Assembly (NCBI RefSeq): GCF_003086295.3 | Contig: NC_092054.1 | Span: forward strand, 52,621,353 to 52,685,352 | DNA length: 64,000 bases | Origin: Arachis hypogaea | Taxonomy: Eukaryota; Streptophyta; Magnoliopsida; Fabales; Fabaceae | Direction: 5' to 3' | Position numbers and translations under genes: made by a program | Part shown: in pieces, positions 5,157 through 63,218 of the stretch | Numbering within the stretch: the first letter of the stretch is position 1 | How the letters are laid out: every line of letters starts with the position of its first letter | The notes under the pieces: generated by a model | What the model saw: the letters and a program-made list of their open reading frames with translations, nothing else | Database searches by the model: none | Told to the model about the DNA's origin: nothing

Positions 5157-6583
5157 TGACGTTAGGATTTTTGCCAGTAAAGAATTTCATAAAAATAGTC
5201 GTGTTGTAGATATAGTCTCTAAACCGACAGAAATCCCTTCGTACAAACGTTTTGGTTGTCACAAGTAACAAACCCCTTAAAAATTGATAACCGAAGTATT
5301 CAAACCTCGGGTCGTCTTCTCAAGAAATTGCAGGGAGGTGTATTTATTATTGGTTATGAGTTTTCTGGGGAATGTTGAGTTTGAGCAATGGGCATAGGTA
5401 TATTTAAATGACAAGTAAAATAAATTAACAATAATAAAATCTCTTGGCAAGGTATGAAGAACTGGAAGTCCTATCCTGGTTATCCTTATCAATTGTAATG
5501 AGAATTGGATTTTTCTCCCACTTTGTTAACCTCTAACTATGAAGGTAAGTTAAGTGGATGAATTAATTTCGAATCCTCAAGTCCTAGTCTTTCCTTGGGA
5601 AAGGCTAGAGTTATAGGATCTCGAATTATTTCTTGAAGAATTCTAATTTTCAATCAACACCTCGAGTTGGATAACTCAAGAGTCACCAATTAATTAATCA
5701 AAGCCAAAAGGAAAAATATCTAAATTAAATTAAAAACATTTATAAATGAAGCAAAGCAAAATTAAATCTGAAAATACCTCGAATTGCATTCACAAAAGAA
5801 CTTAAATCTGACATAGATATTCATAAATTAAATTAGGAAAATAAATAAAAAGAACATTGAACCTGGGATTGAGAGTCACTCCTAAAACTAAGAGAAGTCC
5901 TAAATCCTAATCCTAAGAGAGAGGAGAGAACCTCTCTCTCTAAAAACTACATCTACTCCTAAAATTGTGAATGTGTGAAAGCTTTTCTATGAATGAATGG
6001 ATTCCCTCACTTTATAGCCTCTAATCTGTGTTTTCTGGGCCGCAAACTGGGTCGAAAACAGCCCAGAAATTGCTGGAGAAGAATTCAAACACGCTGATTT
6101 CCGTCACTGCGACGCGGCCGCATGGAGGACGCGGTCGCGTCGCCTAGCGTCAGGGAAACTATGGCATATTATATATCAAATCGAAGCCCCAGACGTTAGC
6201 TTTCCAACGCAACTAGAACCGCGTAGTTTGGACCTCTGTAGCTAAAGTTATAGCTGTTTGAGTGCAAAGAGGTCAGGCTGGACAGCTTTGCAATTTCTCC
6301 AACTTCTTGTATTCCTTCCACTTTTGCATGCTTTCTTTCTATCTTCTGAGCCATTCCTGCCCTGTAATCTCTGAAAGCACTTAACACACATATCAAGGCA
6401 TCTAATGGTAATAAGAGAGGATTAATATTAGCAAATATAAGTCCAAAGAAACATGTTTTCAATTAAAGCACATAATTAGGAAGGCAAATGTAAAACCATG
6501 CAAATAGTATGAATAAGTGGGTAAAGAGTAGATAAAAACCACTCAATTGAGCACAAGATAAACCATAAAATAGTGGTTTATCA
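5157..6583 (-). repeat. Element A 3' LTR
   Basis: Read on the minus strand it begins TGATAAACCACTATTT and ends TAACGTCA. It carries a CG-rich palindrome pair (GACGCGGCCGCATGG, ACGCGGTCGCGTCG) at about 6108-6150, about 430-480 bp from the LTR start. It aligns without visible gaps to 11588-13014. Confidence 0.95.
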
Positions 6584-6620
6584 ACCTCCCCACACTTAAA
6601 CATTAGCATGTCCTCATGCT
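6584..6620 (-). promoter_or_regulatory. 3' polypurine tract and hairpin of element A
   Basis: Minus strand: AGCATG-AGGA-CATGCT (6605-6620), AATG, then TTTAAGTGTGGGGAGGT ending directly at the 3' LTR TGATAAACC. The purine tract is the expected plus-strand primer. Elements B and E have the same hairpin at the same spacing. Confidence 0.85.
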
Positions 6621-7262
6621 AAGCTCAAGAGAAGCTATAAAGATGAAGAGGGATGGTAGAATGTATGAAGTGCAACCTATGAATGTAACTACATGCAAAA
6701 TATTTCTACCTACTTAGTTAAAAGTAAACAAATATTTTAAGAGGAAATATGAACTGGATTTCACTAATTCAAATCATAAAAATGAAGTACAAATAGACTT
6801 GCAAGAAGAAAATAGCTCATGAAAGCAGGGAACAAGGAATTGAGCATCGAACCCTCACTGGTAGTGTATACACTCTAATCACTCATGTGTTTTAGGTTCG
6901 ATTCTCTCAATTCTCTACTAACCTTGATTTCTAAGGCTTGCTCTTCATCTAACAATAAACATAAATTTAATTCACGAATACACAAATCAAGAGGTCTTTT
7001 AAGGGTTGTAATGGGGTTAGGGTCAAGGTAGGATTGTATTTGGTCAAGTGAACTAAAATCTGAATCCTTAATTAACTTAAACTTTTCCCACCTAACTTAA
7101 ACAATCCATGTAATCATAATACAATATCTAACCATCCATTAACCATGTTTTTCACATATTCATGCATTCTAATTTCAAGTACAACTCATATGCATTGCTT
7201 TCACCACATATTTTGGGGCATTTTGTCCCCTTTTACTTATTTGCTCTTTCTCTTTTTCTTTT

Positions 7263-7309
<47 letters not shown>

Positions 7310-8035
7310 TCTTTTTCTTTTGTTTTTTTCAATGCATATGATTAATTTATTGAATGCATGAACATGTCCTAAACATTTCTTTCACATTTTTAGAAAATTC
7401 TAACATACTCAATTCTCAAACCAAATATTTTCAAACCCAATTTTTCCACACTTAAATCATAAGCACTCTCACTAGTCTAAGCTAACCAAAGATTCAAATT
7501 AAGGACATTATTGTTTTTCGCTTAGAGTTAATGATGTGCTAAATAAAAAGAACAAAGGGGTAAAATAGGCTCAAAATTGGTTTGCAAGGGATAATGAAAG
7601 GTAAGGCCATATGGGTATGTAAGCTCAGTGAAACAAAGGCCTCAATCATGTAAGTGTATGCATACATCAAATTATGGAAATATAGAATTAAGCAAGACAA
7701 AGATCACAATTTTAGAGAGAAAAACACACATCAAAAATAAATTATTGGTTGATAAAATACAAACAATCAATTAGGCTCAAAAATCTCACGGGTTTCGTGT
7801 GTTCGAGCTCTAGACCATGTTCCAATATAATATTTCTTCAAACAAGTGTAACAAAAAATTTTATTAGTGAAATGCTCTTAAAAAGGTTTCTTGAAAAAGA
7901 AAATATTACTTCAACCAAGTGGTAAAATATACAAAAAAAAATCAAACAAACATGCAAATGCAACAACTAATCTACAAAGAAAATTTAAACATTGGTGTTG
8001 AGACAAGAAAGTACTAACCCATGGAGATCGGTATC
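6621..8035 (-). other. Conserved noncoding block between the two polypurine modules (A)
   Basis: No gene. Several short blocks recur in elements B and E in the same order, for example the segment with AACCCTCAC and the CACTCTAATCACTC run (6848-6890) and the GGTTGTAATGGGG segment (about 7003). A (CT)n(TA)nTn tract lies at 7255-7330. Confidence 0.6.
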
Positions 8036-8075
8036 GACCTCCCCACACTTAAAGATTGCACCGTCCTCGGTGCAT
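8036..8075 (-). promoter_or_regulatory. Internal hairpin-polypurine module of element A
   Basis: Minus strand: GCACCG-AGGA-CGGTGC (8058-8073) is a perfect 6-bp stem with AGGA loop, followed by AATC and then TTTAAGTGTGGGGAGGTC. The same arrangement lies at the 3' LTR (6584-6620) with a different stem. It resembles a central polypurine tract preceded by a conserved hairpin. Confidence 0.7.
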
Positions 8076-8749
8076 GCTGAGATTTGCAGGTGGACGAGTT
8101 GTTTCAACTGTTGCTTTTCTCGAAGGATTGTGCAGATGAACTTGTCTGTCTCCCTATGTAAACGTCTTCCGCTTCCCTTCCGGGTGGCCATCCTGAAAGA
8201 AAAAGGGAAGAAAGGTAACCCAGTAATAGAGATAAGAAAATAAATGAAGCATGGGTGGGTTAATGCCAAATGAAAAGGGTCTCATTTACATGGAAGCTTC
8301 AACATGTACGTGAGAAAATAATAGAAGCCATGGCATACCAGTGGTTTAAAATTTACAACAATGGGGAAGAGAGTGGGTAATGAAAGACAATGTAAGTTCA
8401 TGTCAATGCAAAAGGAATATCAGTATTATAAAAAGTAGCATTGATTTAAATAATATTACCCAATCTGAATAAAAGAAGTCATGAAGCACCGGGATAATTT
8501 AAGAGAAGATGCAACAGTTGAATAGAAAAATTTTAACACCAATGGTAAAACAATAAATTTAGAAAAGAAAAATAAAAATATGCATAAAATTAAAATGCAA
8601 TGAATGAAATATGCAAATAAAATAAGTAAAATAAAATAAAAGATAAGAAGAATGAGAAGGAAAAGAAGGAAAGAAGAAGTAAGTAAGAAAGGAGGGAGGA
8701 AAAATTAGGATTGGGGCAGAAAAGATAAGATATTTGGCAAATTAGGATA

Positions 8750-9300
8750 AGCTGTGCGGCGCAAGCGACGCGGTCGCGTGGGGCACACGGTCGCGCGACT
8801 TGCGCTTAAACTGATTGACGCGGTCGCGTCGGTCATGCGGTCGCGTGACCCGTTTTATGCTGCTGGCGCGAGGGCAGCCTCGCGCTCGCACAACTCTCTG
8901 TTCAAAATTATTGAATGCCAAATATTAGGCGACGCGATCGCGTGGGGATGCGATCGCGTGAGTGGGCTTTCAGAAGGACATGACGCGGACGCGTGAGGCA
9001 CGCGATCGCGTGAGAAGGATTGCGCGTCCAGCGCCAGTCCAGCACCACTCTAGCACAACTTTCGGATGTGCACCACCTTGACGTCGAAATCCTGGTCACG
9101 CGGCCGCGTGGGGCACGCGGTCGCGTGGGAGGCCATTATTCCCATATGACGTGGTCGCGTCGGTGACGCGATCACGTGGGTAATTTGTGCCATTGGCACG
9201 CCTCCAGCCACGCTCTCGGGTGACTCTCTGTTCAATTTTCTTTCTTCCCAATGCACTGGCGACGCGGACGCGTGGGTGACGCGGTCGCGTCGCGTGCGGT
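8750..9300. repeat. CG-rich palindrome array inside element A
   Basis: About a dozen short, nearly self-complementary motifs of the type GACGCGGTCGCGTG, ACGCGATCGCGTG and GCGGCCGCGTGG, often in pairs separated by GGGCA or GGTCA. They are strongly CpG-rich inside an otherwise AT-rich element. The units differ in their central bases but keep the palindrome. Small open frames across the array are by-products. Confidence 0.85.
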
Positions 9301-9419
9301 TCTTTTTTTTTTAATGCATGAAAAATACAGAATGCAATGCTAATATGAATGTTATACAAAACTCCAGGTTCAATAAAATAAAACTCAAAAACAAATAAAA
9401 CTAAATAAAAATGAAAAAT

Positions 9420-9490
9420 GAACGATCATACCATGGTGGGTTGTCTCCCACCTAGCACTTTTAGTTAGAGTCCTTAAGTTGGACATTTGG
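9420..9490 (-). promoter_or_regulatory. Conserved hairpin block after the gag-like ORF (element A)
   Basis: Minus strand: CCAACTTAAGGAC, then TAGGTGGGAGACAACCCACC. GGTGGG and CCCACC (9435-9452) pair perfectly around a 6-nt loop. Element B has the same block at 39760-39815 with loop AGACAC. It could be an RNA signal such as packaging or dimerisation; this is inference. Confidence 0.6.
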
Positions 9491-9501
9491 TGAGCTCCCT
9501 G

Positions 9502-10994
9502 TTATGGTGGCTTATGCTTGTATTCATCCAGGAATCTCCACCAATGTTTGTGATTCCAGTAACCTCCGGGGTCCCAAACTAGGCATGTAAAGCCCTTAAG
9601 AAGCTTCAGACAGATTCTTAGGCTCCCGGGGTGACAAATGTCAGAGCAGATTCCAGGATCCCAAATCTTGCTTTTACACCCATTTTTGTCGGGATCTGTA
9701 TTTTCCCAGCCGGGTGATAAGTAATTTGAATTCTCACTGCAGCTACCAAACAGCTTCCTAGACCCATTCAATTGAGCTCTACACCAACCCTTGCGTTTAA
9801 ACTTAAAGCTTCCAACCATAATGAACCTTGCAGGACAATTCTTACCACTGACCATCTTCTTCTTACTCTTAATGCCACAAAGAGCTCTAAGTTGACCATC
9901 CGTCTCCAGTAGTCCATATTCAACTGGAATTAGAAAGCTAAGGGATATGAATTTTACTCACTTAAATGTTGTGAAGGATGATGGCAACTTAGGGGGAGGT
10001 GTTTTTAATGAAATTGCAAGGTCCACTCCCTTGTGCTCTTCTCTGATAATTACCACCTATTTGCAAGCTTCTTCAATTTCAACATCTTTCTCTTGGTAGC
10101 TTTCTTCCAATTCAATCTCCTCTTCATTGCTTTCCAAAGGCATGGGAGGTTGTGCTTCTTCTTCTTGAATCTCCATCTCTTGATCAACCTCTTACAAGTC
10201 TTCAACTGTGATATGCCTTGGAGGTTGTACACCCTCCTCAGCATCAATTTCAAACGTCTTGGAAGGGGGTTCTATGACTGGACCTTCCCATGGAGGTTCT
10301 GCATCTCCTAAGTCTTCAACCACTTCTTCTTCTTCAATAATTTCGGCTTCCTTCACTTGTTCCAGTACAAAGTCATGCTCCGTACTGTTCACTGGAGTTT
10401 CTAGTATCTCCTTCATGCTACGTTCTTCATTGGATTGCCCACATGAAGCCATGAGGGTTCCTTGAGTGTCCGAACGTCGGGAAGCTAATTGATTTATCGC
10501 TTGTTCCAATTGACGAATGGTTGCCTAAAATCGATCCACTGTTTCCTTGAAACGATCCTTTGTCTCTTGATGCACTCGGCTTTCATAAATAGGATCATAG
10601 AGCTCTTGGATTGATGGATATGGAGATGGTGAATATTGAAGTGGTGGTTCTTGTGAGTAATTGGGTTGGAATTGGGGTGGTTCTATATATGGTTCATATG
10701 GCTCATAAGGTGGTTGGTATGGTGGTTGAGGGTTAGGGTCATATGGAGGTGAATGGCGGAAAGGGGCTTGTGAGTTTGGTGGTCCAAAGTCATGTTGAGG
10801 AGAGGATTCACAGGTATATGGTGGTGGTTGTTGATAGTCCATTGGAGGTGGTTGTTGCCATGAGGTTTGATCAAATCCTTGTGGCTCCTCCCATCTTTGA
10901 TTGTTCCAACCTTGATGCCTGTTCTCATTGTAATTTCTTCTTCCTGCAACATTATTGTAACCAGACTCATAGCCAAAGAGGTGAGAGTTTATAG
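9502..10994 (-). pseudogene. Decayed gag-like ORF of element A
   Basis: A long, broken minus-strand reading frame. It starts near 10990 (YNNVAGRRNY) and continues through a proline/tyrosine/glutamine-rich part (PPYDPNPQPPYQPPYEPYEP, about 10850-10560). After one in-frame TAG near 10525 comes an acidic part with EEEEVVEDL. Further stops and shifts precede a last segment (9502-9855) rich in W, C and G that ends LDEYKHKPP. No nucleic-acid-binding knuckle, protease or RT is present. Element B keeps only the homologous tail (QDEYKHKSP then stop at about 39720-39750), so the ORF end is shared between elements. Function is unknown; structural gag-like origin is inferred from its position after the PBS. 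Confidence 0.55.
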
Positions 10995-11034
10995 TAGCAA
11001 ATAAAAATTAAAAATAAAAACAAATTTAAATTTA

Positions 11035-11470
11035 AAGGTTATTTAAATTTTGAATTTGAAAATTAAATTTTGAAATTTGAAATTTAAAATTTTGAAATTT
11101 GAATTTTTTGAAATTTGAATTTTAAATTTTTGAAATTTGAATTTTGAATTTGAGATTTTGAAATTTGAAAAAATTTTTAAAATTGAATTTTGAAAATTTT
11201 TAAATTTGAATTTTGAAATTTGATTTTTAAATTTTGAATTTTTTGAATTTAATAAGAAAAGAGAAAAACAATAAAATGACAACAAATTTAAAAATTTTTA
11301 GATCAAAACGAAAAAAACAACTAAGAACAACTTGAAGGTTAAGATGAACACGAAGAACAACCTGAAGATCAAGATGAACACCGAGAAAAAAAAATTTTGA
11401 AAAATTTTTTTTTTTGAAAAAAAAAATTATTTTTTTCGAAAAAAAATTTTTTAATTAAATAAAAACCAAT
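11035..11470. repeat. AT-rich low-complexity leader of element A
   Basis: About 220 bp of degenerate units made from AAATTTGAATTTTGAAATTTG, then long A and T runs at 11390-11450. It lies between the PBS and the gag-like ORF. The open frame across it is only a consequence of low complexity. Confidence 0.7.
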
Positions 11471-11566
11471 AACCTCTTAATTTATGAAAAAAGCAAAAAT
11501 AAAAATAAATAAACAAATAAAAAGCAAATATTTACAATAACCAATAATAAGGCACACGTTTGTAAT

Positions 11567-11584
11567 TTCCCGGCAACGGCACCA
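11567..11584 (-). other. Primer binding site of element A
   Basis: TGGTGCCGTTGCCGGGAA lies 3 nt inside the 5' LTR. Element B has TGGCGCCGTTGCCGGGGA at the same position, and element D has TAGCGCCGTTGCCGGGGA. The shared core marks a tRNA primer site. The exact tRNA was not determined. Confidence 0.8.
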
Positions 11585-11587
11585 TTT

Positions 11588-13014
11588 TGACGTTAGGATT
11601 TTTGCCAGTAAAGAATTTCATAAAAACAGTCGTGTTGTAGATATAGTCTCTAAACCGACAGAAATCCCTTCGTACAAACGTTTTGGTTGTCACAAGTAAC
11701 AAACCCATTAAAAATTGATAACCGAAGTATTCAAACCTCGGGTCGTCTTCTCAAGGAATTGCAGGGAGGTGTATTTATTATTGGTTATGAGTTTTCTGGG
11801 GAATGTTGAGTTTGAGCAATGGGCACCGGTATATTTAAATGACAAGTAAAATAAATTAACAATAATAAAATCTCTTGGCAAGGTATGAAGAACTGGAAGT
11901 CCTATCCTGTTTATCCTTATCAATTGTAATGAGAATTAGATTTTTCTCCCACTTTGTTAACCTCTAACTATGAAGGTAAGTTAAGTGGATGAATTAATTT
12001 CGAATCCTCAAGTCCTAGTCTTTCCTTGGGAAAGGCTAGAGTTATAGGATCTCGAATTATTTCTTGAATAATTCTAATTTTCAATCAACAACTCGAGTTG
12101 GATAACTCAAGAGTCACCAATTAATTAACCAAAGCCAAAAGGGAAAATATCTAAATTAAATTAAAAACATTTATAAATGAAGCAAAGCAAAATTAAATCT
12201 GAAAATACCTCGAATTGCATTCACAAAAGAACTTAAATCTGACATAGACATTCATAAATTAAATTAGAAAAATAAATAAAAAGAACATTGAACCTGGGAT
12301 TGAGAGTCACTCCTAAAACTAAGAGAAGTCCTAAATCCTAATCCTAAGAGAGAGGAGAGAACCTCTCTCTCTAAAAACTACATCTACTCCTAAAATTGTG
12401 AATGTGTGAAAGCTTTTCTATGAATGAATGGATTCCCCCACTTTATAGCCTCTAATATGTGTTTTCTGGGCCGCAAACTGGGTCGAAAACAACCCAGAAA
12501 TCGCTGGAGAAGAATTCAAACACGCTGATTTCCGTCACTGCGACGCGGCCGCATGGAGCACGCGGTCGCGTCACCTAGCGTCAGAGCAACTATGGCATAT
12601 TATATATTAAATCGAAACTCCGGACGTTAGCTTTCCAACGCAACTAGAACTGCGTCGTTTGAACCTCTGTAGCTAAAGTTATAGCCGTTTGAGTGCGAAG
12701 AGGTCAGGCTGGACAGCTTAGCAATTTCTCCAACTTCTTGTATTCCTTCCACTTTTGCATGCTTCCTTTCTATCCTCTGAGCCATTCCTGCCCTGTAATC
12801 TCTGAAAGCACTTAACACACATATCAAGGCATCTAATGGTAATAAGAGAGGATTAATATTAGCAAATATAAGTCCAAAGAAACATGTTTTCAATTAAAGC
12901 ACATAATTAGGAAGGCAAATGTAAAACCATGCAAATAGTATGAATAAGTGGATAAAGAGTAGATAAAAACCACTCAATCGAGTACAAGATAAACCATAAA
13001 ATAGTGGTTTATCA
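11588..13014 (-). repeat. Element A 5' LTR
   Basis: Same length as the 3' LTR with scattered substitutions and no visible indels. It begins TGATAAACC at 13014 and ends CGTCA at 11588, followed by AAAA and the PBS. Confidence 0.95.
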
Positions 13015-38035: not shown

Positions 38036-39501
38036 TGATGAATCCATATTTGACAATAAATTTTGGATTGATTTGAGTGGATTTTATCATATAAACCCAC
38101 ATTTATTCATCCAAATAGCATACTTTTGTGTTCTCTCCCTAAATTGAGCTTAATTGTGAAAACATGCTATTTTGTGATTAATTTAACTAATTTTATTCCA
38201 CTTTCATTCTATTCAATGCCTTGATACTTTTGATGAGTGATTTTAGGTATAATAGGTTGGAATGGCTTGATGAGAGTGGAGGAGAAGCATGCAATAGGGA
38301 GAAAACATGAAGAAATCAAAGGAGGAGCACACAGCCATGTGTGCGTACGCACAACATCCTGTGCATACGCACGAATCAGCACACGTGACTCACTTAAAGG
38401 AAAACGCTGGGGGCGATTTCTAGGCCTCCAGAGCCCAATTTTGGACTTTCTGAAGCTGATTGATTGCTATATCAAAAGGGCATCATTCCATATCAAGTGG
38501 AGAGCAATTAGGGTAGATTAGAATCATGCTTTAGGTCATATTCTAGAGAGAGAAACTCTCCCTTCTCTTTAGAATTAGGGTAGATTAGGTTAGATCTCTC
38601 TTAGATTTAGGTTTAATTCTTGTTTTTATTTAGTTTTCCTTGCCATTTATTGTTATTGCATCTTTGCTCTTTACTTCTACTTGTTATTTCTTTTCTTTTG
38701 TTCCTTTATGTTTATGACACTTTGTTACTTTTGATTTCAATTAATGCAATTTATTTTTTATGTTTCTTATTGCTTAATTTAATTGTTATTATTGTTTTCT
38801 TTCAATTGGTAGTTGTAGAATTTATTATTTCTTATTATTTTACCATACTTTCCTTTTATGCCTTCCAAGTATTTGATAAAATACTTGGTTGGATTTTTGC
38901 CTGGTTTTTCACACTATTGGTTGGGAAATTGGGTAATTAGGTGAACTTGAGTGGTGAATGTCCATTCTACATTGTGTGAGGATTGTTAGTTGATTTGGTT
39001 TCTACTAACTCTAAGCCTTCCATTAATAGAGTTGGCTAGGACTTGTGGATTGAGATCAATTATGCTCTTTTGACTTATTCTCGATGTTAGGATAGACAAA
39101 TTGGGATTAATTCTACACAATTACCATGTTTGTGGTCCATAACTAGGATAGAAATCCTCAATTCCCCAATCCTTATCAAGAGTCCTTTTTGCCACTTGCA
39201 TTCCATTTTTAATTTACTTGCTTTATGTTTTAATTCCCTTGCATGCTTATTCACTTTCTTGCCTTTTAATTTTCTTGTCACTTGTAATCACAACCCCAAT
39301 TCCCTCATAGCCAATAATATGACACTTGATTGTAATTCCTAAGGTGAACGACCCGGGAGTTTAAATACTCTTGGTTATTTGTGTTGATTGTGACATCTTT
39401 GAATTAAAATTTGATGTTGGTCAATTGTTGGGTTTGGACTATACTTGCAACGGAAATATTCTATCTTGAGAAATTCCAAACCTACTTTTGGCCTTCCATC
39501 A
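38036..39501 (+). repeat. Element B 5' LTR
   Basis: Carries a short palindrome array (GTGTGCGTACGCAC, TGTGCATACGCAC) at about 38336-38372, about 300 bp from the LTR start. It ends CTTCCATCA directly before AGTTTTTGGCGCC. Confidence 0.93.
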
Positions 39502-39719
39502 AGTTTTTGGCGCCGTTGCCGGGGAGTTGCAATGGTGTTATATTATTGGCTATTGTGAATATGTTAATATGTGAATATCTTGCTTTTTGTTTGTTTTCTT
39601 GATTTTTTTTGTATAGAAGGTTATTTTGGGAGCTCATAGCTTGTTGGAAAATCCATCAAAGCTTGGTGCAATCAATTGAGAATTTTGGAGATTCAAGCAT
39701 TGTTGGAAGCTCCAAGATG

Positions 39720-39815
39720 AATATAAGCATAAGTCTCCTTGATTAGAGCCCTCCATAAGTCCAACTTAAGGACAATAAACCAAAGTGTTAGGTGGGAGAC
39801 ACCCCACCATGGTAA
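39720..39815 (+). promoter_or_regulatory. ORF tail and conserved hairpin of element B
   Basis: A short frame ends QDEYKHKSP and stop, then TCCAACTTAAGGAC (39760), then GTTAGGTGGGAGACACCCCACC with a perfect 6-bp stem (39791-39808). Element A has the same three parts in the same order (9540-9430, minus). Confidence 0.6.
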
Positions 39816-40024
39816 CATTGTTCTAACTCCTCTCTTTTTGTTTATATTTTGACTTAGTTGCTTTTTGTTATGACTGGTTGACTTAGGATTAGTTTAATTT
39901 TAAGCTTAGATAGGTTGATTTTGGTATGGATCATGATTTTGTGAAGTTTTGAATGTTGTGGGGTTGAAATTTTGGTTGAGCTAAGGTGCAATGCCTTAGA
40001 TTTTAAAAGAAAATTTTTTGAAAA

Positions 40025-40505
40025 AACAGGGCATGTGCGTACGCGCTACTCTGTGTGCACGAACACCAGCATTTGCAGCCTCTGTTGAGAGCGCTTGCAC
40101 GCCTTATGCGTGCTCATCTCCCTTTGTTTTGCGCTCTGTGCGTACGCACAACCATGTGCGTTCGCATAGAAACCCATTTTTCGTGCATCCTGTGCGAGCG
40201 CACCTCCCTGTGCATGCGCACACTCCCTTCCACCCCTTCTGCTGGGAGCGCTGGCACGCCCTGTGCGTATGAACCCCTATCCAATTTTGTTTCTGTGCGT
40301 GTGCACGGACTTGTGTGCGCACGCACACATGATCCTTTCCCAAGTTAAAAAAAAAGTGTACTGTGCAAATGCACAAGCTTGTGCGCGCGCACACTTCTTA
40401 ATCTCCTCTCTGTTCAGAGCATTCGCATACCTTTGTGTGTCCGCTCACCTTCCATTTTTCACCAAGTGTGCGTACACACACATGTCTGTGTGTACGCACA
40501 GGTGC
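40025..40505. repeat. GC palindrome array inside element B
   Basis: A dozen or more units such as GTGCGTACGC, GTGCGTTCGCA, GTGCGCACGCACA and TGTGTGTACGCACA, each a near-palindrome around GTACGC or GCGCGC. This corresponds to the GACGCGGTCGCGTC array in element A but with a different core. The overlapping small open frames are by-products. Confidence 0.85.
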
Positions 40506-41483
40506 TGTTTTGGGCAAAATTTTGATTGTAGTTTTCCTTGAGCCCTAAAGCACTTCCACCCCCTCCATCCTTTTCTTCTCTTACTTTTGCCCTCTTTTCT
40601 ACTTATTCTAGTTAGTTTTAATTGCTTCTCATTTTCACTTTAGTAATTATATTAGTTTTGGTTTAATTGTTTGTTAATTAAATAAGTTGCAAGTGTTTGA
40701 TTGATGATTGATTGGGTTGATTCTTGCTTGAATTTTGGCTTAATTTTGGATGACTATGTGCACTAAACATTAAGTCCTTATTTGATCGCCTAAATGAATT
40801 GTGAGTTTGATTCATATGTTGTAGCTACCATATGCATTAAACTATATCCTTTTTTGGCATCTTAATCATGAATTGTGCACTTTTACTTTAGTGAATTGAA
40901 TTAAATTACTTGTTTATCATGATTTTCATATCAAATTAATCACATGATCGATACTTGTTTCTTGTTAATGCCTTGCATTTGTTTGAGTGAATTGACTTGA
41001 TTGTTATCAAACTTGTTACTTTTTGCAACAAGTACCTTTACCATGTGTCTTTTTCATTATGTTTCATGATGAATAAGGAGTTTTCTATTCATTATTGGAT
41101 TGGTTATTGTTTATTGTGCTTCTATATAAATTTTGCGCTTTCACTTGCACAATTTCAATATCCAATATCAAATATTCAATTCACTTTAGTTGTGGTTACC
41201 TAGGTTTACTTGTGCTTTACTCCTTTGCTTCTCTTTACTTATAACCTGGGCCACTTAGTTGAGGAACACATGCTATTTCTTTTGCTTGTGTGGTTTCTAT
41301 TTTTACCTGGCCAATGTGTGTTCTAAACTGTGCACACTTCGAATACACACATTGTCTTTTACCATACCACACTACTATGACTTTTTCCTCAATTCTTGTT
41401 TATTTGTTTTCTACAACAACCCGAGCCCCAGTTCCCACCAGCTGAAGGTGGAGCCTCACATCTCTTCACCCCCAGATTATGTG

Positions 41484-41526
41484 CATGTACGGAGGACCGT
41501 GCAACATTTAAGTGTTGGGGAGGATC
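41484..41526 (+). promoter_or_regulatory. Internal hairpin-polypurine module of element B
   Basis: TGTACGG-AGGA-CCGTGCA forms a 7-bp stem with one G-T wobble and an AGGA loop. ACAT and TTAAGTGTTGGGGAGG follow. It matches the internal modules of A (8036-8075) and E (60956-60996). Confidence 0.68.
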
Positions 41527-43069
41527 CACAATTTTGGGGTGTAAAATTCTCTTTCTCAACACTTTGCACTATTTTCTAGCTTTTAGTAGTTTTGAATTTT
41601 ATGAATATTTGTTAGTATTGCATGGCATTGCATTTTGCTTAGTTTGCTTGTATATATCTTAGCTTGCTTATAGTTTTATAGTAGTAAATATTTGCATGTT
41701 GCCTAGTATAGGAAATAAGTTTGGTAGAAACAACAAAGAATTTTCAAGAAATCCCTTCTAGGGCGTTCCATTGATTAGATTTGAAAACTTGTTTTTTTAA
41801 CTTGCTTGAAGTATTTTTATGGAACATAGAAAAGAGTTTGAATAAAACACCAAGTGAGAATTGAGCTTTAATTGTGTGGTTACACATTTTCAACCACAAA
41901 TTTTGTTCTTGTGTGTTATACTCCTTTATAATTGTAATCTTAGATTTGCTTGAATCTTTATATCCTATATTTGATGTTTTGAATGCATTTAGTATGATTG
42001 AGGCCGTTGTTGAAAATTAAACTCACTAACCCATATGGCCAACCCTTACATCTACCTTTGTAAACCACTTTTGAGCCTTTTAATTCCCCTTTGTTCTAAT
42101 TTTAATCACATCTTTCTCCCTAAGCGAAAAACCATTAATGTCCATGAATTGTATCATTGATTAGCTTGGGTTGAGTGTGTGTGTTAATCAAGTGTGGGGA
42201 GAATTTGTAGAAACATTGGTAGAAAGTTACTTCGAGTGTTCATTGAGAATATTTGAAAAAAATGGGTAAACACTCATGCGTTTATTACTTAAAACATATG
42301 CATCTCTTTTATATGATAAAAGAAAAATTTTGGTGTACATACTTTATTTATAAAAAAAAGAAAAAAAAGAAGAAGAAAAAGAAAAAAGAAAGAAATAATA
42401 ATAAAAATATAAATAAAGAATGCATATGTATGAGAATTGGAAAGAAAATGCATGAGTGAGTGTGAAAAAGGAGATGAGTGGGAAGTTAGGTTATTTTCCT
42501 TTGTGTAAATAGGTTAATATAGGATTAGGTGGGATACTTGAGCTAATCAAAGATCCAATCCACAAGTCCACTTAACCATATTAATCCTACCCTTACCCTA
42601 ACCCCATTACAACCCTCCAAAGAACTCATGATATTTGCATTCATTCATTAAGTATTTGTCGATTGTTAGATGACTAGCAAATCCTAGAAAACATGATTAA
42701 AGGAGAATTGAGTGATTAAGCCCTACACACTGAGCGATTAGAGTGTAAACACATCCGGTGAGGGGTTTAATTGCTCAATTCTATGTTTCCATCTCTTATC
42801 CTATATCTTCTTGCAAGTTGCCTGTTAGTTTTTTAAAATTTCAAAATCAAATCTTTGAACATCGATCATATTGCTATATTTTCTTTGCCTTGGCCCTAAG
42901 GCTTATTTTGGATTGATTGGAATTCTCTTGTTTGTTTTTGCTGAACTTAATAGGAAACCATAGTATAGATATAGATATAGATAGATAGCATTTAGTATAG
43001 TTGCATGCATATAAGTAGTTGCATTGAATAAGTTGCTTGCCCTTTTACCCTTCTCCTTTGATTGTGATT
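41527..43069 (+). other. Conserved noncoding block between the two polypurine modules (B)
   Basis: No gene. Shares ordered blocks with A and E, for example the CTAACCCCATTACAACCCTC segment (42598) and AGCGATTAGAGTGTAAACAC with GGTGAGGGGTT (42730-42765). A-rich tract at 42350-42420. Confidence 0.6.
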
Positions 43070-43106
43070 AGCATGAGGACATGCTATTGTTTAAGTGTGG
43101 GGGAAT
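43070..43106 (+). promoter_or_regulatory. 3' polypurine tract and hairpin of element B
   Basis: AGCATG-AGGA-CATGCT (43070-43085), ATTG, TTTAAGTGTGGGGGAAT, then the 3' LTR TGATGAATCC. Confidence 0.85.
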
Positions 43107-44551
43107 TGATGAATCCATATTTGACGATAAATTTTGGATTGATTTGAGTGGATTTCATCATATAAACCCACATTTATTAATCCAAATAGCATACTTTTGT
43201 GTTCTCTCCCTAAATTGAGCTTAATGTGAAAATATGCTATTTTATGCTTAATTTAACTAATTTTATTCCACTTTCATTCCATTCGATGCCTTGATGCTTT
43301 TGATGAGTGATTTTAGGTATAATAGGTTGGAATGGTTTGATGAGAGTGGAGGAGAAGCATGCAATAGGGAGAAAACATGAAGAAATCAAAGGAGGAGCAC
43401 ACAGCCATGTGTGCGTACGCACAACATCATGTGCATACGCACACATCTGTATGTACGCACGAATCAGTGCACGTGACTCACTTAAAGGAAAACGCTGGGG
43501 GCAATTTTCTGGGCCTCCAGATCCCAGTTTTGGACTTTCTAAAGCTGATTGAGTTCCAAGTGGAGAGCAATTAGGGTAGATTAGAAACATGCTTTAGGTC
43601 ATATTCTAGAGAGAGAAGCTCTCCCTTCTCTCTAGAATTAGGGTAGATTAGGTTAGATCTCTCTTAGATTTAGGTTTAATTCTTGTTTTCATTTAGTTTT
43701 CCTTGCAATTTATTGTTATTGCATCTTTGCTCTTTACTTCTACTTGTTATTTCTTTTCTTTTGTTCCTTTATGTTTATGACACTTTGTTACTTTTGATTT
43801 CAATTAATGCAATTCATGTTTTATGTTTCTTATTGCTTAATTTAGTTGTTATTATTGTTTTCTTTCAATTGGTAGTTGTAGAATTTATTATTTCTTATTA
43901 TTTTACCATGCTTTCCTTTTATGCCTTCCAAGTGTTTGATAAAATGCTTAGTTGGATTTTTGCCTGGTTTTTCACACTATTGGTTGGGAAATTGGGTAAT
44001 TAGGTGAACTTGAGTGGTGAATGTCCATTCTACATTGTGTGAGGATTGTTAGTTGATTTGGTTTCCACTAACTCTAAGTCTTCCATTAATAGAGTTGGCT
44101 AGGACTTGTGGATTGAGATCAATTATGCCCTTTTGACTTATTCTCGATGTTAGGATAGACTAATTGGGATTAATTCTACACAATTACCATGTTTGTGGTC
44201 CATAACTAGGATAGGAAGCCTTAATTCCCCAATTCTTGGCAAGAGCTCTTTTTACCATTTAATTTCTATTTTCATTGCTTTTACTTGCTTTCCATTTAAT
44301 TACTTTCCATTTTAATTTCTTTCCTCTTATAATAAAAACCCCCACATCCCCATAGCCAATAATTGAGCATTTCATTGCAACTCTTAGGGAAGACGTCCCG
44401 GGAATTAAAACTCCCGGTTTATATTTGTTTTGAATTGTAACTATTCTTTGATTTAAAATTGGATTGATGGTCGACTGTCGGGTTAGGACTATACTTGCAA
44501 CGCCAATCTTATTTTGAGAAAAATTCCTAGCCCACTCTAGGCCATACATCA
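43107..44551 (+). repeat. Element B 3' LTR
   Basis: It starts directly after the 3' PPT. Its palindrome array (about 43406-43462) has one more unit (TGTATGTACGCAC) than the 5' LTR. From about 44215 onward it differs strongly from the 5' LTR, although both end CATCA. Confidence 0.93.
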
Positions 44552-53430: not shown

Positions 53431-53960
53431 TTGACCCATCTTGAATTCTGCATGAAATAGTCTCTAGAATGAGTTGAATTTGGGCTTGGGAAGCTCAGAA
53501 ATCATCCCAGCGTTTTTACTTTAATGAGTTCACGTGCGAGCTGCGACGCGTACGCATGGGTCACGCGTACGCGTCACTCGGCAATTTACTTCCCACGCGT
53601 ACACGTCGCCATGCGACTTCATATTCACGCATGTGCGTCTGTTACGCGTGCGCGTCGATGTATGCACTCCAAATCCTTGATTTTTCATGAATTCTCCAGT
53701 TTGCATGCTTTTCTCTCCACTCCTTTGATCAATTCCTAGCCTTTTCAACCTGAATTCACTAACAAACACATCAAGGCATCTAGTAGAATCAAAGGTGAAT
53801 TAAAATTAGCAAATTAAAGGCTTAAAAAATATGTTTTCACACTTAAGCACAAATTAAGGGAGAATTACAAAACCATGCTATTTCATTGAATAAATGTGAG
53901 AAAAGTTGATAAAATCCACTCAATTCAACATAAAATGTACCACGAAATAGTGGTGCATCA
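53430..53960 (-). repeat. Truncated TGATG-type LTR (element C)
   Basis: Minus strand start TGATGCACCACTATTTCGTG at 53960. A palindrome array ACGCGTACGCGTGAC, GACGTGTACGCGTGG and ACGCGCACGCGTAAC lies at about 53535-53660, about 300-425 bp from the LTR start. The far end is lost at the join with element D. Confidence 0.75.
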
Positions 53961-55396: not shown

Positions 55397-56012
55397 TTCT
55401 CCCCTCCTAATAAAATTTTCGTCCTCGAAAATTCGAATCACACGCTATATATATATATGTATGTATTCTCCACGAAGCATTCTACTATCAACGTTATCAG
55501 CCCAACAAGTTGCCAAAGCATCCTGTTCACCATCATCCTAACGTGTCAATGTTCTCTCTCGCCTTCCGCTGCATCACTCTAATTATCGTTATTAAGAATC
55601 CAAAAGTTCTTCCCTTTAAACCAAATGCCGATTTTGTAATAGTTTTCAAAACCTTTAAAACAAGTTCAATCTAAATGAGTTCATTGTTAAAACTTTCTCA
55701 AAAGAGTCAAAAATAATTTATTTGTAAATTAATCACTTTAAAGCATGATTTTTCTAAATTCCTTAAAACCCTTAAATTAGAACCGTTCAATTTAAATCCT
55801 TTTTGATAAGTTAAATTTACAAACCAAAATCGTAAGTTAACAAAATCATAGAACTCACTTTCCTTTCTAAATCGTATCATTTAATCAAAAGTTCGAATCC
55901 TAGTTTCAAAACCAAATCATTTAAACCAAAGTTCCAAACCAAATTTAAAAATCCTTTTAAGCTTTACAACTTTTTCAACAAGAACGACGATAGTCTATAC
56001 TATGAAAATAAG

Positions 56013-57685: not shown

Positions 57686-59218
57686 TGATGAGAGAAACTT
57701 TTGTGTGGTCTAGAAATTTGCGGATAAATCCTCGTTGCAAGTATAGTTTCTAAACCAACAAAAGACCTTTCATACAAACGTTTTGGTTGTCACAAGTAAC
57801 AAACCCCTAAATAAATTGATAACCGAAGTATTCAAACCTTGGGTCGTCTTCTCAAGGAACTGCAGGGAAGTATATTCTTATTATTGGTTATGGAGATTGT
57901 AAATCGGGGTTTTGATAATGAGGAGTGAATAGTTTAATTAGCAAATAAAGTAAATGAAGAACAAGTAATTTAAATGGCAAGTAAAATAAATAAATAACTG
58001 TAAATAAACTTTTGGCAAGGTAGGTCATATCCTAGCTATCCTTATCAATAATGATGAAAATTGAATCTTAATTCCACTTTGTTAACCTTTACCAAGATAA
58101 AGGAAGAAAAGGGATTAATTGGTTTGATGTTCGAATCCTATTTATTTCCTAAGAAAAGATTGGGATTATTGAAGTTCATTTAATTAACAAGATAACAATT
58201 ATCATTCATGTTTGAGTTTGATAACTCCTGAGTTACTGATTTCTTAACCAAGACCAAAAGGAGAAAAGTAAATCTACTGGAATAAAAATGTCTTCAGTTG
58301 GGAATAACAATAATGTAAATAAGAGAAAGCAATATTAAACTGAAATACCTCAAATAACATTAATTCAAAAGAGTAATCTGTAACATGAATGTAGCATAGG
58401 CCAAATAGGCAACATAACTAATATAAGCATTAAAGTATCTAAAAGTAAGAGATAAATATAAAGTAAAAGAACATTGAACCTGGGATCGAGAGCCACTCCT
58501 AAAACTAAGAGAAATCCTAAATCCTAATCCTAAGAGAGAAGAGAGAGGAGAGAACCTCTCTCTAAACTAAATCTAAATCATGAAAAAAAACTAAAGTGGT
58601 GACTCTTTTTGAATGGATGCATTCTCCCACTTCATAACCTTTGGTCTATGCCTTCTGGACTTGGATTTGGGCCAAAAAGGGCTTCAGAATTCGCTGAGAG
58701 CGTTTTCTATAATTTCTGGTGCGTGGCCTTTGTCACGCGTCCGCGTGGGTCACGCGGTCGCATCATTCGGAGTTTTCCTTATCACGCGGTCGCGTCAGTC
58801 ATGCGACCGCGTCATATGTGTTTTGCTTAAGGCGCACGGTCGTGTCAGCCATGCGGCCGCGTCGCTGCTTCTTTGCACTTGGCATGCGTCCGCGTCGCCC
58901 ATGCGATCGCGTGGATGCCAGTTTCTTCACAAACTCCGTTTTATGCTTTCCTTCCATTTTTGTATGTTTCCTTTCCATACTTTAAGTTATTCCTGCCTTA
59001 GAAGATCTGAAACTACTCAACACACTAATCACGACATCGAATGGAAATAAAGGTAATTAAAATAATTAATTTTAAAGCATAGGAAACATGTTTTTCACAT
59101 ACATCATATAATAAGGAAGGGAAAGTAAAACCATGTAATTAATATGAATAAGTGGGTGAAGGATTGAATAAATCACTCAGATTAAGCACAAAATATAACA
59201 TAAAATATGGGTTTATCA
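57686..59218 (-). repeat. Element E 3' LTR
   Basis: Partly alignable to the element A LTR (CCTGGGATCGAGAG, AAAACTAAGAGAA, CGTTTTGGTTGTCACAAGTAACAAACCC). A CG palindrome array (CACGCGTCCGCGTGG, CACGCGGTCGCGTC, ATGCGACCGCGTC, CATGCGATCGCGTGG) lies at about 58733-58915, about 300-485 bp from the LTR start. Confidence 0.88.
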
Positions 59219-59255
59219 ACCTCTCCACACTTAAACAATAGCATGTCCTCATGCT
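59219..59255 (-). promoter_or_regulatory. 3' polypurine tract and hairpin of element E
   Basis: Minus: AGCATG-AGGA-CATGCT (59240-59255), ATTG, TTTAAGTGTGGAGAGGT, then LTR TGATAAACCC. Confidence 0.83.
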
Positions 59256-60955
59256 AAGTCCAAGAGTAATGTTAGGTTAAAGTAGTGGAATGCCATGCAA
59301 TGCAATCTAATCTAAATGCAACTACCTAGATGCATCATGCAATTCTAATTTTTTATTCACTTGTATATAAAACTTGCATGTAGTTGAATTAATTCACATT
59401 CTCAAGGAGTCATATATATATATATATATATAGCCAAACCTTAGATAATGATAAAGCATTTTTACAGTTGAGATGGGAGAGAAAAACATTTTATAAACTT
59501 GCAAGACAATTAATAATTCAAACAGAGATATATGTTAATGAGCTATTGAACCCTCACTGGATTTTGTGTTTACTCTCTAGTCACTCAGTGTTTATTGGGT
59601 TAATCACTCTATTCTTCTTTTTATCCTTACTTTCTATAACTTTGTTCTTCATCTAACCAATCAACAATTATAGAATATAGACATACCAAAAATCATGAGG
59701 TCTTTAGTTAAGGTTGTAATGGGGCCAAGGTAAAGGTAAGGATATATGTATAAGGCTAAGTGAGCTAATAAGTGAATCCTTAATTAGTCTAAGATCTCAC
59801 CTAACATACATACTTTCTAAAGCAAAGCTTCTTTACCTATTTTCCCATGTTTTCCCACTTTTGATGTTACATGCTCATGTTTTAATATTTATTATTTTTA
59901 TCCCATGTGCATTGCTTTATTTCTCATTTGGAGAATTCTTTTGTGTCCCCTTTATTTAAATACTGAATTTTTTTTAATGCACATGGTAATTCAGTTAAAT
60001 TGATTTCACATGAGCATGCTTCCCAAAACTCTTTATTTTGAATTACTTTATTCTTTTCAACTTTTTCGACCTTTTGTTTTTATCATCCATGTTCCCAATA
60101 GGTTTTCTGCATTTAAACCATACATACTTCCTATCTTAAGCTAACCAATGATTCAACTTGGGATTTTTATTTTGTTTTTCTGCTTAAGGCTAGTAATGTG
60201 GTTTATAGAAAAAAAGGGATTTAAAGGCTCAAGGGGGCTAACAAGGGTGATGTGAAAGGTAGGTTATTTTGGGATAAGTGAGCTAAAATCAAATAATGGC
60301 CTCAATCACTCTCTTGGTATGTATTTCTATTCTATAATCGGACATATAGATTAAAACAAAGTAAAGAACACCAGAATACAAAAGAAGGGTGGAACACACA
60401 TGAATAAAATATTATGGTTTGAATGTAACCATACAATTAAGCTCAAAACTCACAGGCTGTGTGTTCTCTAGCTCAAAAATCATTTATCACTTATGTATGT
60501 CATGCAGGTTTAGTTAAAAATTCCCATTATTCTCAATGTAAAACTTATATTGAATGGCTTTAAAGTTCTAGTGTTTCTCCTTGATGAAATGTTGTTAACT
60601 AAGTAACATGTAATGCTATATATACAAGGTGTGTGGATTGTTTCTATTGTGTTCAAGTTCCTAGTTTACTTCCTTTTTATATTTTTCAATTTAAACTAAG
60701 CTATCTTAAAAAAGGGTAAACTATACTAATTAATCCACAATTTCTATAACTAATAAGTTAGAATTGCAACTAAACTAAATGGCTAAAATATGAACTAAAG
60801 TGCAACATAGGATAAATACATAAAAATAGTAATATATATAAGTACTGAGAAAATAAAAATAAAAAAAAATAAAAATAAAGAGAAAAATACAGAAAAGTAG
60901 CAAAATAAATAAAAAGAGTATGTAGTGGTTCACCAAAAAAGAACGCCAGAGATGG
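59256..60955 (-). other. Conserved noncoding block between the two polypurine modules (E)
   Basis: No gene. Blocks shared with A and B include AACCCTCACTGG with the TCTAGTCACTCA run (59547-59590) and GGTTGTAATGGGGCC (59713). (TA)n at 59410-59432. Confidence 0.6.
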
Positions 60956-60996
60956 CGACCGCCCCACACTTAAAATGTAGCATCGTCCCCGATGCT
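60956..60996 (-). promoter_or_regulatory. Internal hairpin-polypurine module of element E
   Basis: Minus: AGCATCG-GGGA-CGATGCT (perfect 7-bp stem), ACAT, TTTAAGTGTGGGGCGGTC. It lies directly downstream of the ORF end. Confidence 0.7.
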
Positions 60997-61077
60997 TACT
61001 CAAGCAGGGTGTGAAGGGGTGTCATCACTGGAAGGGTGGGTAGCTGGGGTCTCTGTGGTGGTGGTCTGAGGATCTGG

Positions 61078-61825
61078 CTACTGCAGAGGAGGTGCTGACT
61101 GGATAGGGATCTCGGGGTCTACAGCCTGAATCTGAGGCGGAGCCTCTTGATGTGATGCTGCCTGCTGGGTGCCTGCCTGCTCTGCCTTGCTCTGGGGATG
61201 GGTCTCTGCCTCGTGATCATCTGCCTCCTCCTCAGATGCCTCGGATGGTGTGTCAGGCTCGGAGGGGATGTCGCCAGAGCATATCATCAGCTTCAGGTGC
61301 TCACAGCGTCGCTTGTCTGGTCAAGCCGTCGAAATAGGCGGTGCACTAAATGATAGATGGGCTCTGGGACAGGTGGAGGTGCAGTGGTGGTGGCAGGGGT
61401 AGCTGTGGAAGAAGAGGGACCGGCAGATGGTGTGGCTGTGTCAGCAGTAGCAGTGAGGAATGGAGGTCTGTAACCCAAAGCCAGAAAGTTCCTGTTGTGC
61501 GGGATAATCTTCTTGCATTCTGCAGCAGGTGGCTTTTCATCAGCATCCTCCCAAGGCACGTCAGCTCGACGTCCTAGCTGTGTAATCAGATAAGGAAAGG
61601 GAAGAGTGCCTCGGACATGGACCCTAGCCATATAGTACCGGATAAAGCGTGGCAGGTACAGGTCCTTACCCTCCATCACACACCATAGGAGGGTGATCAT
61701 AGTGGCTGGTATCTCAGTCTCGTGAGTACTCGGCATAATGAAGTTGCTAAGTATCTGATGCCATAGCCGAGCCTCATCATTCAAGTAGATCCGCTTGATT
61801 CCCTTTGGCATGGTAGTGTTCTGAC
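61078..61825 (-). pseudogene. Element E ORF, C-terminal part ('putative plant transposon protein' type)
   Basis: Minus: [20 protein letters not shown], then RLWHQILSNFIMPSTHETEI and LLWCVMEGKDLYLPRFIRYY, then FPYLITQLGRRADVPWE. This matches the second half of the plant-transposon domain found in non-autonomous Ty3-like elements of legumes (from memory; PF20167-like). A frameshift near 61320 leads to a Glu/Ala/Gln-rich tail (PDTPSEASEEEADDHEAETH) ending at 61078. The N-terminal half lies across the plastid insertion at 62653-63218. Function unknown. Confidence 0.65.
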
Positions 61826-61836
61826 CCATAATCCAA

Positions 61837-62011
61837 AGAACAGGGACGAAAGTCGGCCTTAGTGATCCGACGGTGCCGAGTGGAAGGGCCGTCGCTCAAC
61901 GGATAAAAGTTACTCTAGGGATAACAGGCTGATCTTCCCCAAGAGCTCACATCGACGGGAAGGTTTGGCACCTCGATGTCGGCTCTTCGCCACCTGGGGC
62001 TGTAGTATGTT

Positions 62012-62043
<32 letters not shown>

Positions 62044-62140
62044 TACGTGAGCTGGGTTCAGAACGTCGTGAGACAGTTTGGTCCATATCCGGTGTGGGCA
62101 TTAGAGCATTGAGAGGACCTTTCCCTAGTACGAGAGGACC
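61837..62140 (+). pseudogene. rrn23: Plastid 23S rRNA fragment (domain V to sarcin/ricin loop)
   Basis: Contains universal large-subunit rRNA phrases: GGGATAACAGGCTGATC, CACCTCGATGTCGGCTC, ATTAAAGCGGTACGTGAGC and the sarcin/ricin loop AGTACGAGAGGACC. The plastid-type helix CGACGGTGCCGAGTGG points to a chloroplast origin. It breaks off right after AGAGGACC and is joined to unrelated sequence. A nuclear fragment, not a working rRNA gene. Confidence 0.9.
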
Positions 62141-62413
62141 AAAATTCAACAATCACATATCCAAAATCATGAAACGATTCATGTGTTGTTGAACAGAAAT
62201 ACAGAATGCCAATCTTTGATAATTTTGTCATCATATGATTGTTTTGAAATAGGACCTTTTAGCAATGTAAAATACTACAATGAGCAGAAAAAAAAAAGAA
62301 TAAAAAAAATAAAAAAGGATCTTCAAATTCCAATTAAGAATTCATTAGGTCCCGTAGGAATAGCACTTCAAGTTTCAAATTTTATTCATCGAGATCTGAA
62401 TATGAGTTATTAA
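62141..62413 (+). other. AT-rich piece of the organelle insertion, unidentified
   Basis: An open frame of 76 codons ([40 protein letters not shown]) ends in TAA at 62413. The composition and context suggest a plastid ORF, possibly ycf1-like, but I cannot identify it. Confidence 0.4.
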
Positions 62414-62641
62414 AGTCGACATCCAGGGGTGATCTCGTAGTTCCTACGGGGTGGAGACGATGGGGTCGGTCCATGGATTTTCTTTCCTTTTGCCGCATTT
62501 CGTTCAAAGGGTTGAAGGGAGATAGTGCATCAAGCTGTTCGCAAGGGCCAACTTGATCCTCTTCCCCAGGATCCCAGATGAGGAAACCCTAGGAGAGCCG
62601 CCGACTCCAACTACCGTCCATGTACGATCCCTACTAGATCT
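62414..62641 (+). other. Plastid inverted-repeat spacer fragment
   Basis: Phrases such as GGTGATCTCGTAGTTCCTAC, TGGGGTCGGTCCATGG and GAGCCGCCGACTCCAACTAC resemble the plastid region between rps12 3' and trnV-GAC (from memory). No complete gene. Confidence 0.65.
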
Positions 62642-62652
62642 CCATAATCCAA

Positions 62653-63218
62653 CGAACAGTCGGGTCAAGGGCTATCCGGGCCTTGACTGCATCCTAATCA
62701 AATCGCATGAAGTGCATATCCTCCTTAGCTTTTTGATAACCATCCAGCTAATCAGTTTTAGGCAGAAGCTTCAGAACTTCTTCAATGGCCTATTCAATGA
62801 CCAGAATCTGCTTTCCTCTAAGGTTCACTGCATCTAGGGAGGTTTTGAAGTAATTGCAGTAGAATTTCCGAACCCAAGATGCATTGACCTCAATCAGGGG
62901 TCTTTCCAGGAAGAACCAGCCTCTTTGTTTGATCTGGTCAGAGGTGTATTGCTGAAGTTCTTCTGGGATCTTCAAAGTTCTCTCCAGGTATAGGTTCCTG
63001 GAGGCTGCAAACACCGGATACCTCAGCTCACAGTATCGGTTTGCAAACTTTACTAGATCAGTAGCAGGGATTAGCTGGTCGGCCTTCTCTTGCGGGGTAA
63101 AATTTTTCTCCCGCGAGGAGGCATCATGCATGAGATCTATGATAGACATAGAGGCTTTTCCTCTTTTTTGCTTGCCAGTTGTTGCATTTCCTTTCCCTTT
63201 TCTGTGGGAGTCTGACAT
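62653..63218 (-). pseudogene. Element E ORF, N-terminal part ('putative plant transposon protein' type)
   Basis: Minus: starts MSDSHRKGKGNATTGKQKRG at 63218. RLIPATDLVKF-type sequence follows, then YCELRYPVFAASRNLYLERT, RGWFFLERPLIEVNASWVRK and FYCNYFKTSLDAVNLRGKQI. This is the first half of the plant-transposon domain. After VIE come TAG stops (about 62790, 62744 and 62690) but recognisable sequence continues (KAKEDMHFMRFD, then AVKARIALDPTVRWIM) up to the plastid insertion. The protein has no assigned activity; its presence marks non-autonomous Ty3-like elements. Confidence 0.68.

Follow-up and report, generated by a model that had tools for sequence, protein, structure and literature searches.

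How reverse transcriptase chooses one purine-rich stretch as its primer is an old question, and several described retroelements contain more than one polypurine tract (PPT). An extra PPT has been reported for Athila4 of Arabidopsis and Calypso of soybean (Wright and Voytas, 2002, as cited in PMC2829016), where it forms part of the linker region; both elements also have an additional ORF (PMC2829016). In Ty1, and with the central PPT of HIV-1, a second PPT is found in coding sequence (PMC2829016). Multiple PPTs also occur in the Sireviruses of the Ty1/copia group, for which Bousios and co-workers proposed an inverted repeat at the terminal PPT as a signal for RNase H, citing Ty1 work according to which the PPT alone is not sufficient; this repeat straddles the border of PPT and LTR, one of its arms belonging to the LTR, and the upstream PPTs lack it (PMC2829016).

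Here we describe three LTR retrotransposons (elements A, B, and E) of Arachis hypogaea in a window of 64,000 nucleotides, i.e., the whole stretch C19:52,621,353-52,685,352 that was analyzed. Like Athila4 and Calypso, these elements have one extra PPT and, in A and E, an extra or remnant ORF, but each PPT has its own covarying hairpin, and no hairpin is mentioned for Athila4 and Calypso in the account given in PMC2829016. With the Sireviruses they share several PPTs upstream of the 3′ LTR and a structure that borders the terminal PPT; unlike the Sirevirus repeat, this structure is a compact hairpin with a 4-nt loop that lies wholly upstream of both PPTs. As in Ty1 and HIV-1, there is a second PPT, here a candidate start site, beside the 3′ PPT. 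In contrast to those second PPTs, it is located after the ORF (directly so in the three readable copies) and 1.4–1.8 kb from the 3′ LTR, and the term "central" that a preliminary description of this DNA had applied to it is therefore misleading.

As the extra PPT of Athila4 and Calypso is already in print, the second PPT is not new, and the earlier remark that no description was known holds for the hairpin only: in the open literature searched, a scope outside which Wright and Voytas (2002) fell, no description of a covarying hairpin ahead of Ty3/gypsy PPTs came to light. As far as this literature goes, the hairpin at both PPTs is new. A covarying hairpin that accompanies the PPT tens of thousands of times in a single genome, and in elements of more than one type, is a direct and testable candidate for the signal that singles out a primer, and the pairing of hairpin and PPT possibly explains why some elements retain two PPTs. 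In addition, the module offers a simple route to PPTs and LTR edges in plant genomes.

Six hairpin-PPT modules in elements A, B, and E

The features of the three elements are the following (window positions).

5157..13014, minus strand: element A, with LTRs at 5157-6583 and 11588-13014 (97% identical) and the 5-bp target duplication TCCCC on both sides
6584..6622, minus strand: 3′ hairpin-PPT module of A, TTAGCATG-AGGA-CATGCTAA, PPT, AGGT; abuts the 3′ LTR
8036..8074, minus strand: internal hairpin-PPT module of A, TGCACCG-AGGA-CGGTGCA
11584, minus strand: PBS-like site of A, with two mismatches
38036..44551, plus strand: element B, with LTRs at 38036-39501 and 43107-44551 (88%) and the 5-bp target duplication GACAT on both sides
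39508, plus strand: PBS of B, TGGCGCCGTTGCCGGGGA
41485..41526, plus strand: internal module of B, TGTACGG-AGGA-CCGTGCA, with one wobble; PPT with one mismatch
43068..43106, plus strand: 3′ hairpin-PPT module of B; abuts the 3′ LTR
57686..59218, minus strand: 3′ LTR of E, outer end inferred from CATCA
59219..59257, minus strand: 3′ hairpin-PPT module of E, with one mismatch in the PPT; directly next to the 3′ LTR
60956..60997, minus strand: internal module of E, AGCATCG-GGGA-CGATGCT; the upstream frame ends with TGA at 61002-61000
61000..63218, minus strand: PF20167 ORF region of E, interrupted by stop codons and by a stretch that contains an organelle-type rRNA fragment

Six modules consisting of a hairpin with an AGGA or GGGA loop, a short spacer, and the PPT TTTAAGTGTGGGG had been proposed for these elements, and all six were found at the stated positions. 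The PPT is identical in four of them and deviates by one mismatch each in the 3′ module of E (TTTAAGTGTGGAG) and the internal module of B (TTTAAGTGTTGGG). The stems pair as proposed, with lengths that are best counted as 7 bp, or 8 bp in the 3′ module of A. The spacer is not fixed at 4 nt: within the window, 7-bp stems are followed by 3–4 nt and the 8-bp stem of A by 2 nt, and the common genome family CATGCTT-GG has a spacer of 2 nt.

Of the 26 PPT-like matches in the window (at most three mismatches), these six alone are directly preceded by a 7–8 bp stem with an [AG]GGA loop. In each of A, B, and E, the 3′ copy lies directly next to the LTR, where a functional PPT is expected, and the distance from loop to LTR is 27 nt in all three. 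In the alignment of A, B, and E, the 3′ module is the most conserved block of 36 columns, with 33 of the 36 identical as compared to 42% of the ungapped columns. A covariance model built from the six modules gave them 50–58 bits and the next window site 11.7 bits; as the model was trained on these same modules, what counts here is solely the drop in score to the next site.

All considered marks of LTR retrotransposons (TG...CA ends, PBS, PPT, and target duplication) are present in A and B, and one LTR side lies in the window in the cases of E and of element F (see below). A and B are complete and have no long ORF (the longest encode 160 aa and 123 aa); as E is cut by the window edge, the previous designation as non-autonomous is assessable for A and B only. 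The three elements look Athila-like, although the Athila layout of an extra ORF before a long noncoding 3′ region and a second PPT would, even where shared, by itself be no proof. An Athena probe, as printed in PMC5904367, matched 274 bases of the LTR/PBS region of B at 75%. The PF20167 match of E is above the curated cut-off, and the protein shares 91% identity with one from Arachis hypogaea; all those named among the 28 matches listed are from Arachis, and no relative was found among viral contigs. At locus L299, PF20167 is matched in two broken halves with 39.1 and 41.8 bits, each below the cut-off of 45, and the ORF at locus L300 gave no Pfam match. A search of Rfam at gathering thresholds matched an rRNA fragment alone. 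This bacterial-type 23S rRNA fragment at 61920-62079, inside the broken PF20167 region of E, is probably of plastid origin.

Covariation of the stems

The preliminary description had stated that the stems covary, and this is borne out by an ungapped alignment of the six modules, in which 42 of 42 cells were paired and six of the seven pairs showed a two-sided change. In 500 shuffles, 63.7% of the cells were paired; none of them attained the observed percentage of pairing, the two-sided cell count, or the covariation score, while 19 attained the two-sided pair count and 41 the pair-type count. Pairing collapsed in slid controls of the same alignment. As the three 3′ stems are identical, the covariation within the window rests on four distinct stems, and more copies were therefore needed.

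The search covered the window's own genome of 2,557,474,382 bases (2.56 Gb), in which the exact pattern GAGGAC-N7-12-TTTAAGTGTGGGG had 15,340 + 15,446 = 30,786 matches and its reversed control 0 + 0. From a list of 100 places, 90 were examined (30 loci and 60 fetched pieces), several of the ten omitted places nearly repeating others. The first six pairs were kept in 90, 88, 83, 89, 88, and 89 of these 90 copies, with pair 1 being set by the search pattern, and the outer pairs 7, 8, and 9 in 75, 52, and 32. An unbroken stem of at least six pairs was present in 78 of the 90 copies. The distinct clean stems include TAGCATG/CATGCTA, AAGCATG/CATGCTT, TGCACCG/CGGTGCA, and AGCATCG/CGATGCT, as well as AGCACGG/CCGTGCT, TGTACGG/CCGTGCA, and GGCACCG/TGGTGCC. 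For 37 distinct arm pairs, the paired fraction was 0.846 versus 0.537 after re-pairing of the arms (sd 0.039, maximum 0.676, n = 2,000), in a set in which some loci overlap, some PPT-like sites lack a hairpin, and relatedness remains after re-pairing. These arms came from 157 of 176 PPT-like sites, the other 19 having no purine tetramer at the right place. By its covariation, and with relatedness partly controlled, the hairpin is a conserved RNA structure, presumably with the strand considered here acting as RNA.

It was in principle conceivable that the string is conserved as the end of a coding region and that its pairing is accidental, as read-through into the hairpin is possible in A (CTEDGAIFKC) and B (CTEDRATFKC) and CTEDGAIFKC occurs in three database proteins. 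We consider this highly improbable, because the changes in the stem alter the residues (CTEDGA, CTEDRA, SIGDDA) while the pairs are kept, because the frame ends before the hairpin in E, L299, and L300, and because the 3′ copies abut the LTR and element F has other letters. With the protein tail P0028, an AGGA hairpin of 8 pairs is possible, and at least six pairs were possible in 3% of 300 shuffled tails, which lends this hairpin weak support.

Paired modules in the genome

When the 100 places were classed by the 3′ arm, 62 were of the 3′ type and 38 of the internal type. Considering same-strand neighbors only, all 15 pairs closer than 2 kb ran from an internal-type to a 3′-type module at distances of 1,392–1,537 bp, and two more pairs, at about 2.95 kb, were 3′-type to 3′-type. 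Of the 47 3′-type places without an exact partner, 20 were sampled by fetching 2.6 kb upstream, and an internal-type module was present 1,390–1,789 bp upstream in 16 of the 20, in some cases with a decayed stem (e.g., L251). At L250, a second 3′-type unit lies 2,000 bp upstream, and at L252, L255, and L261 (3/20) no internal module was found within the 2.6 kb. The geometry of the pairs and the 16 sampled loci together indicate that these elements regularly carry the internal copy. The preliminary description had named two outcomes that would speak against it, an absence of covariation in many copies and internal copies at random positions in these three elements only; neither is the case in this genome.

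The internal stems match one another at 7–11 of 14 positions and any 3′ stem at 2–4 of 14, and this closer likeness among internal stems suggests that the duplication may predate these families. Outside the stem, 23 of 24 positions are identical between the two modules of A and 18 of 25 between the internal copies of A and B; the near-identity within A makes an exchange between copies possible and any age assigned to the duplication less certain.

With respect to origin, the internal unit could be the relic of an ancestral 3′ end, composed of the stop codon of the last ORF, hairpin, PPT, and LTR, to which a later 3′ end was added downstream, and it could persist simply because the elements were copied recently. 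The internal hairpin indeed begins directly after the ORF, as the stop codon lies 3 nt upstream in E, 3 nt in L299, and 2 nt in L300, and according to the Diaspora paper (PMC1142308), there is a clade in which PPT and LTR come shortly after the stop codon of pol. However, the stems survived two-sided changes while their letters drifted, and the internal unit is still present in the 16 sampled loci mentioned above, so that mere persistence of a relic appears quite unlikely to us. As an explanation of how the unit arose, the relic view can be reconciled with a function of the unit as a primer signal.

Similar two-part strings listed from other collections did not form such modules. A stem of at least 5 pairs was found in 0 of the 120 matches listed for a viral collection, and elsewhere in 0 of 31 prokaryote loci and in 0 of 1 viral locus; among the matches listed for the viral and prokaryotic collections, no module with such a stem lies beside an Athila-type PPT. 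The TTCGAGGACGAA pattern matched two viral contigs of near-identical sequence, and a narrower pattern matched none.

A hairpin before a different PPT

A scan of both strands of the window for [AG]GGA hairpins with a stem of at least six pairs and at most one wobble yielded seven, namely the six modules and one hairpin before a different PPT.

55397..55434, minus strand: hairpin of element F, GAATTTTCG-AGGA-CGAAAATTT, before the different PPT AGGAGGGGAGAA; inferred LTR start TGTAAGAACC at 55396

From the overall hairpin rate, 2.8 [AG]GGA hairpins were expected, and seven tetraloops (TATA, ATAT, TCGA, and four more) outrank AGGA in hairpin rate; tetramers of the same letters (AAGG, AGAG, GAAG, GAGA, GGAA) gave 0–2 such hairpins each. 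The unusual point is that all seven [AG]GGA hairpins precede a G-run, as compared to 7.5% of [AG]GGA sites generally. Fragments of gag and of a zinc knuckle lie upstream of the hairpin of F, which by its gag resemblance may be a chromovirus, and no second copy of its LTR was found in the window. The distance from loop to LTR is 25 nt in F versus 27 in A, B, and E.

In the genome, the pattern GAGGAC-N12-22-GGGGAGAATGT had at least 263 matches. Among 30 examined GGGGAGAATGT loci, the PPT is followed by TGTAAGAA in 7 and by TGTCA in 23. Four of the seven TGTAAGAA loci have 8 pairs (AAATTTTG/CAAAATTT), one has 10 (CATTTTCG/CGAAAATG), one 5, and one 3, and the TGTCA loci have 4 perfect pairs in 22 cases and 3 in one, with longer stems only via a bulge. 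It is conceivable, if doubtful at present, that plant Ty3/gypsy lineages share a structural priming code, in which an AGGA hairpin would stall the enzyme in minus-strand synthesis at the near-constant loop-to-LTR distance of 25–27 nt and RNase H would cut the primer end whatever the letters of the PPT; the Athila type might then have copied the whole unit as a displacement primer after its extra gene.

Alternatively, the hairpin could be a binding site of the Gag nucleocapsid that serves as a packaging or chaperone signal, with the purine tetraloop exposing free G bases. Retroviral packaging hairpins have free G bases in the loop, and non-autonomous elements must keep their packaging signals. 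In line with this, the loop is strongly kept: with the AGCATG/CATGCT stem fixed and the loop free, 21,444 sites matched genome-wide, and those listed have AGGA in all but six (four AAGA, one AGGG, and one AGAA). Nevertheless, we regard binding by Gag as unlikely. In the blind scan of the window, such hairpins invariably preceded a PPT, in one case a different one; the modules described here were otherwise sought via their PPT. Furthermore, both copies in A and E lie downstream of acceptor-like sites, as the string TTTCAG directly precedes the ATG of the extra or remnant ORF in both elements and TTTTTCAG lies just before the ATG of the PF20167 ORF region in E. With putative splicing at these sites, both copies would also be present on the spliced RNA and could therefore not mark the genomic RNA.

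A putative signal for the plus-strand primer

The position, pairing, covariation, duplication, orientation, and distance of the modules are best explained by the view that hairpin and PPT may form one structural RNA signal for the plus-strand primer, with the internal unit as a second start site. From the sequence comparisons, we assign this reading a probability of roughly 0.55. That the hairpin is linked to the PPT, that it stands at a near-constant distance from the LTR, and that its stem letters are free to vary argues for a shape that acts together with the PPT. Within the element RNA, the unit would help reverse transcriptase to place the primer, and the 3′ unit would mark the LTR edge. 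Primer formation could be set either by the enzyme pausing at the hairpin, which would position its RNase H, or by a hairpin shape that draws RNase H. The internal unit right after the ORF would provide a second plus-strand start, and a plus strand begun at this site would run for about 1.5 kb before reaching the 3′ unit. On arrival, it might displace the plus-strand strong-stop DNA for transfer.

In Ty3, the polymerase and RNase H sites are about 13 bp apart, and there is no central PPT (PMC5371799). In the elements described here, a 7-bp stem is separated from the LTR by 20 nt, so that a simple ruler misfits, and we claim no exact ruler. The finding that PPT1 alone suffices for Ty1 transposition, as worded in the title of a reference in PMC2829016, counts against this reading.

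Single folds also contain an outer helix in which the PPT pairs with a pyrimidine tract upstream of it. It was rejected because it did not go beyond composition, with Stouffer z values of -1.3 against shuffled upstream sequences and -2.7 against random upstream pieces.

Further features of the elements

A third PPT-like sequence that has no hairpin is present in A at 7444-7456 (minus strand, two mismatches), and positions 42187-42199 of B (plus strand) align with it. In the sampled loci, such a hairpin-less third site lies about 800–863 bp upstream of the 3′ PPT in 5 of 20 (L253, L257, L264, L265, L267).

Between the modules, there is a strongly conserved noncoding block (CCCCATTACAACC ... GTGAGGG) at 6850-7040 in A (minus strand), 42570-42770 in B (plus strand), and 59540-59760 in E (minus strand). 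In the consensus fold of this block from A, B, and E, the covariation term was positive, i.e., unfavorable.

A further LTR start of this type at 53677-53962 (minus strand) has no preceding module and probably belongs to a 5′ LTR or a solo LTR. In A, the start of the LTR (6560-6583, minus strand) can form a hairpin of its own (GATAAACCA ... TGGTTTATC), which by eye is partly possible also in the LTR fragment at 53962. Elsewhere in the genome, the region G000:C1:16538377-16553266 contains three module pairs on one strand in steps of about 6,665 bp, which resembles a tandem array with shared LTRs.
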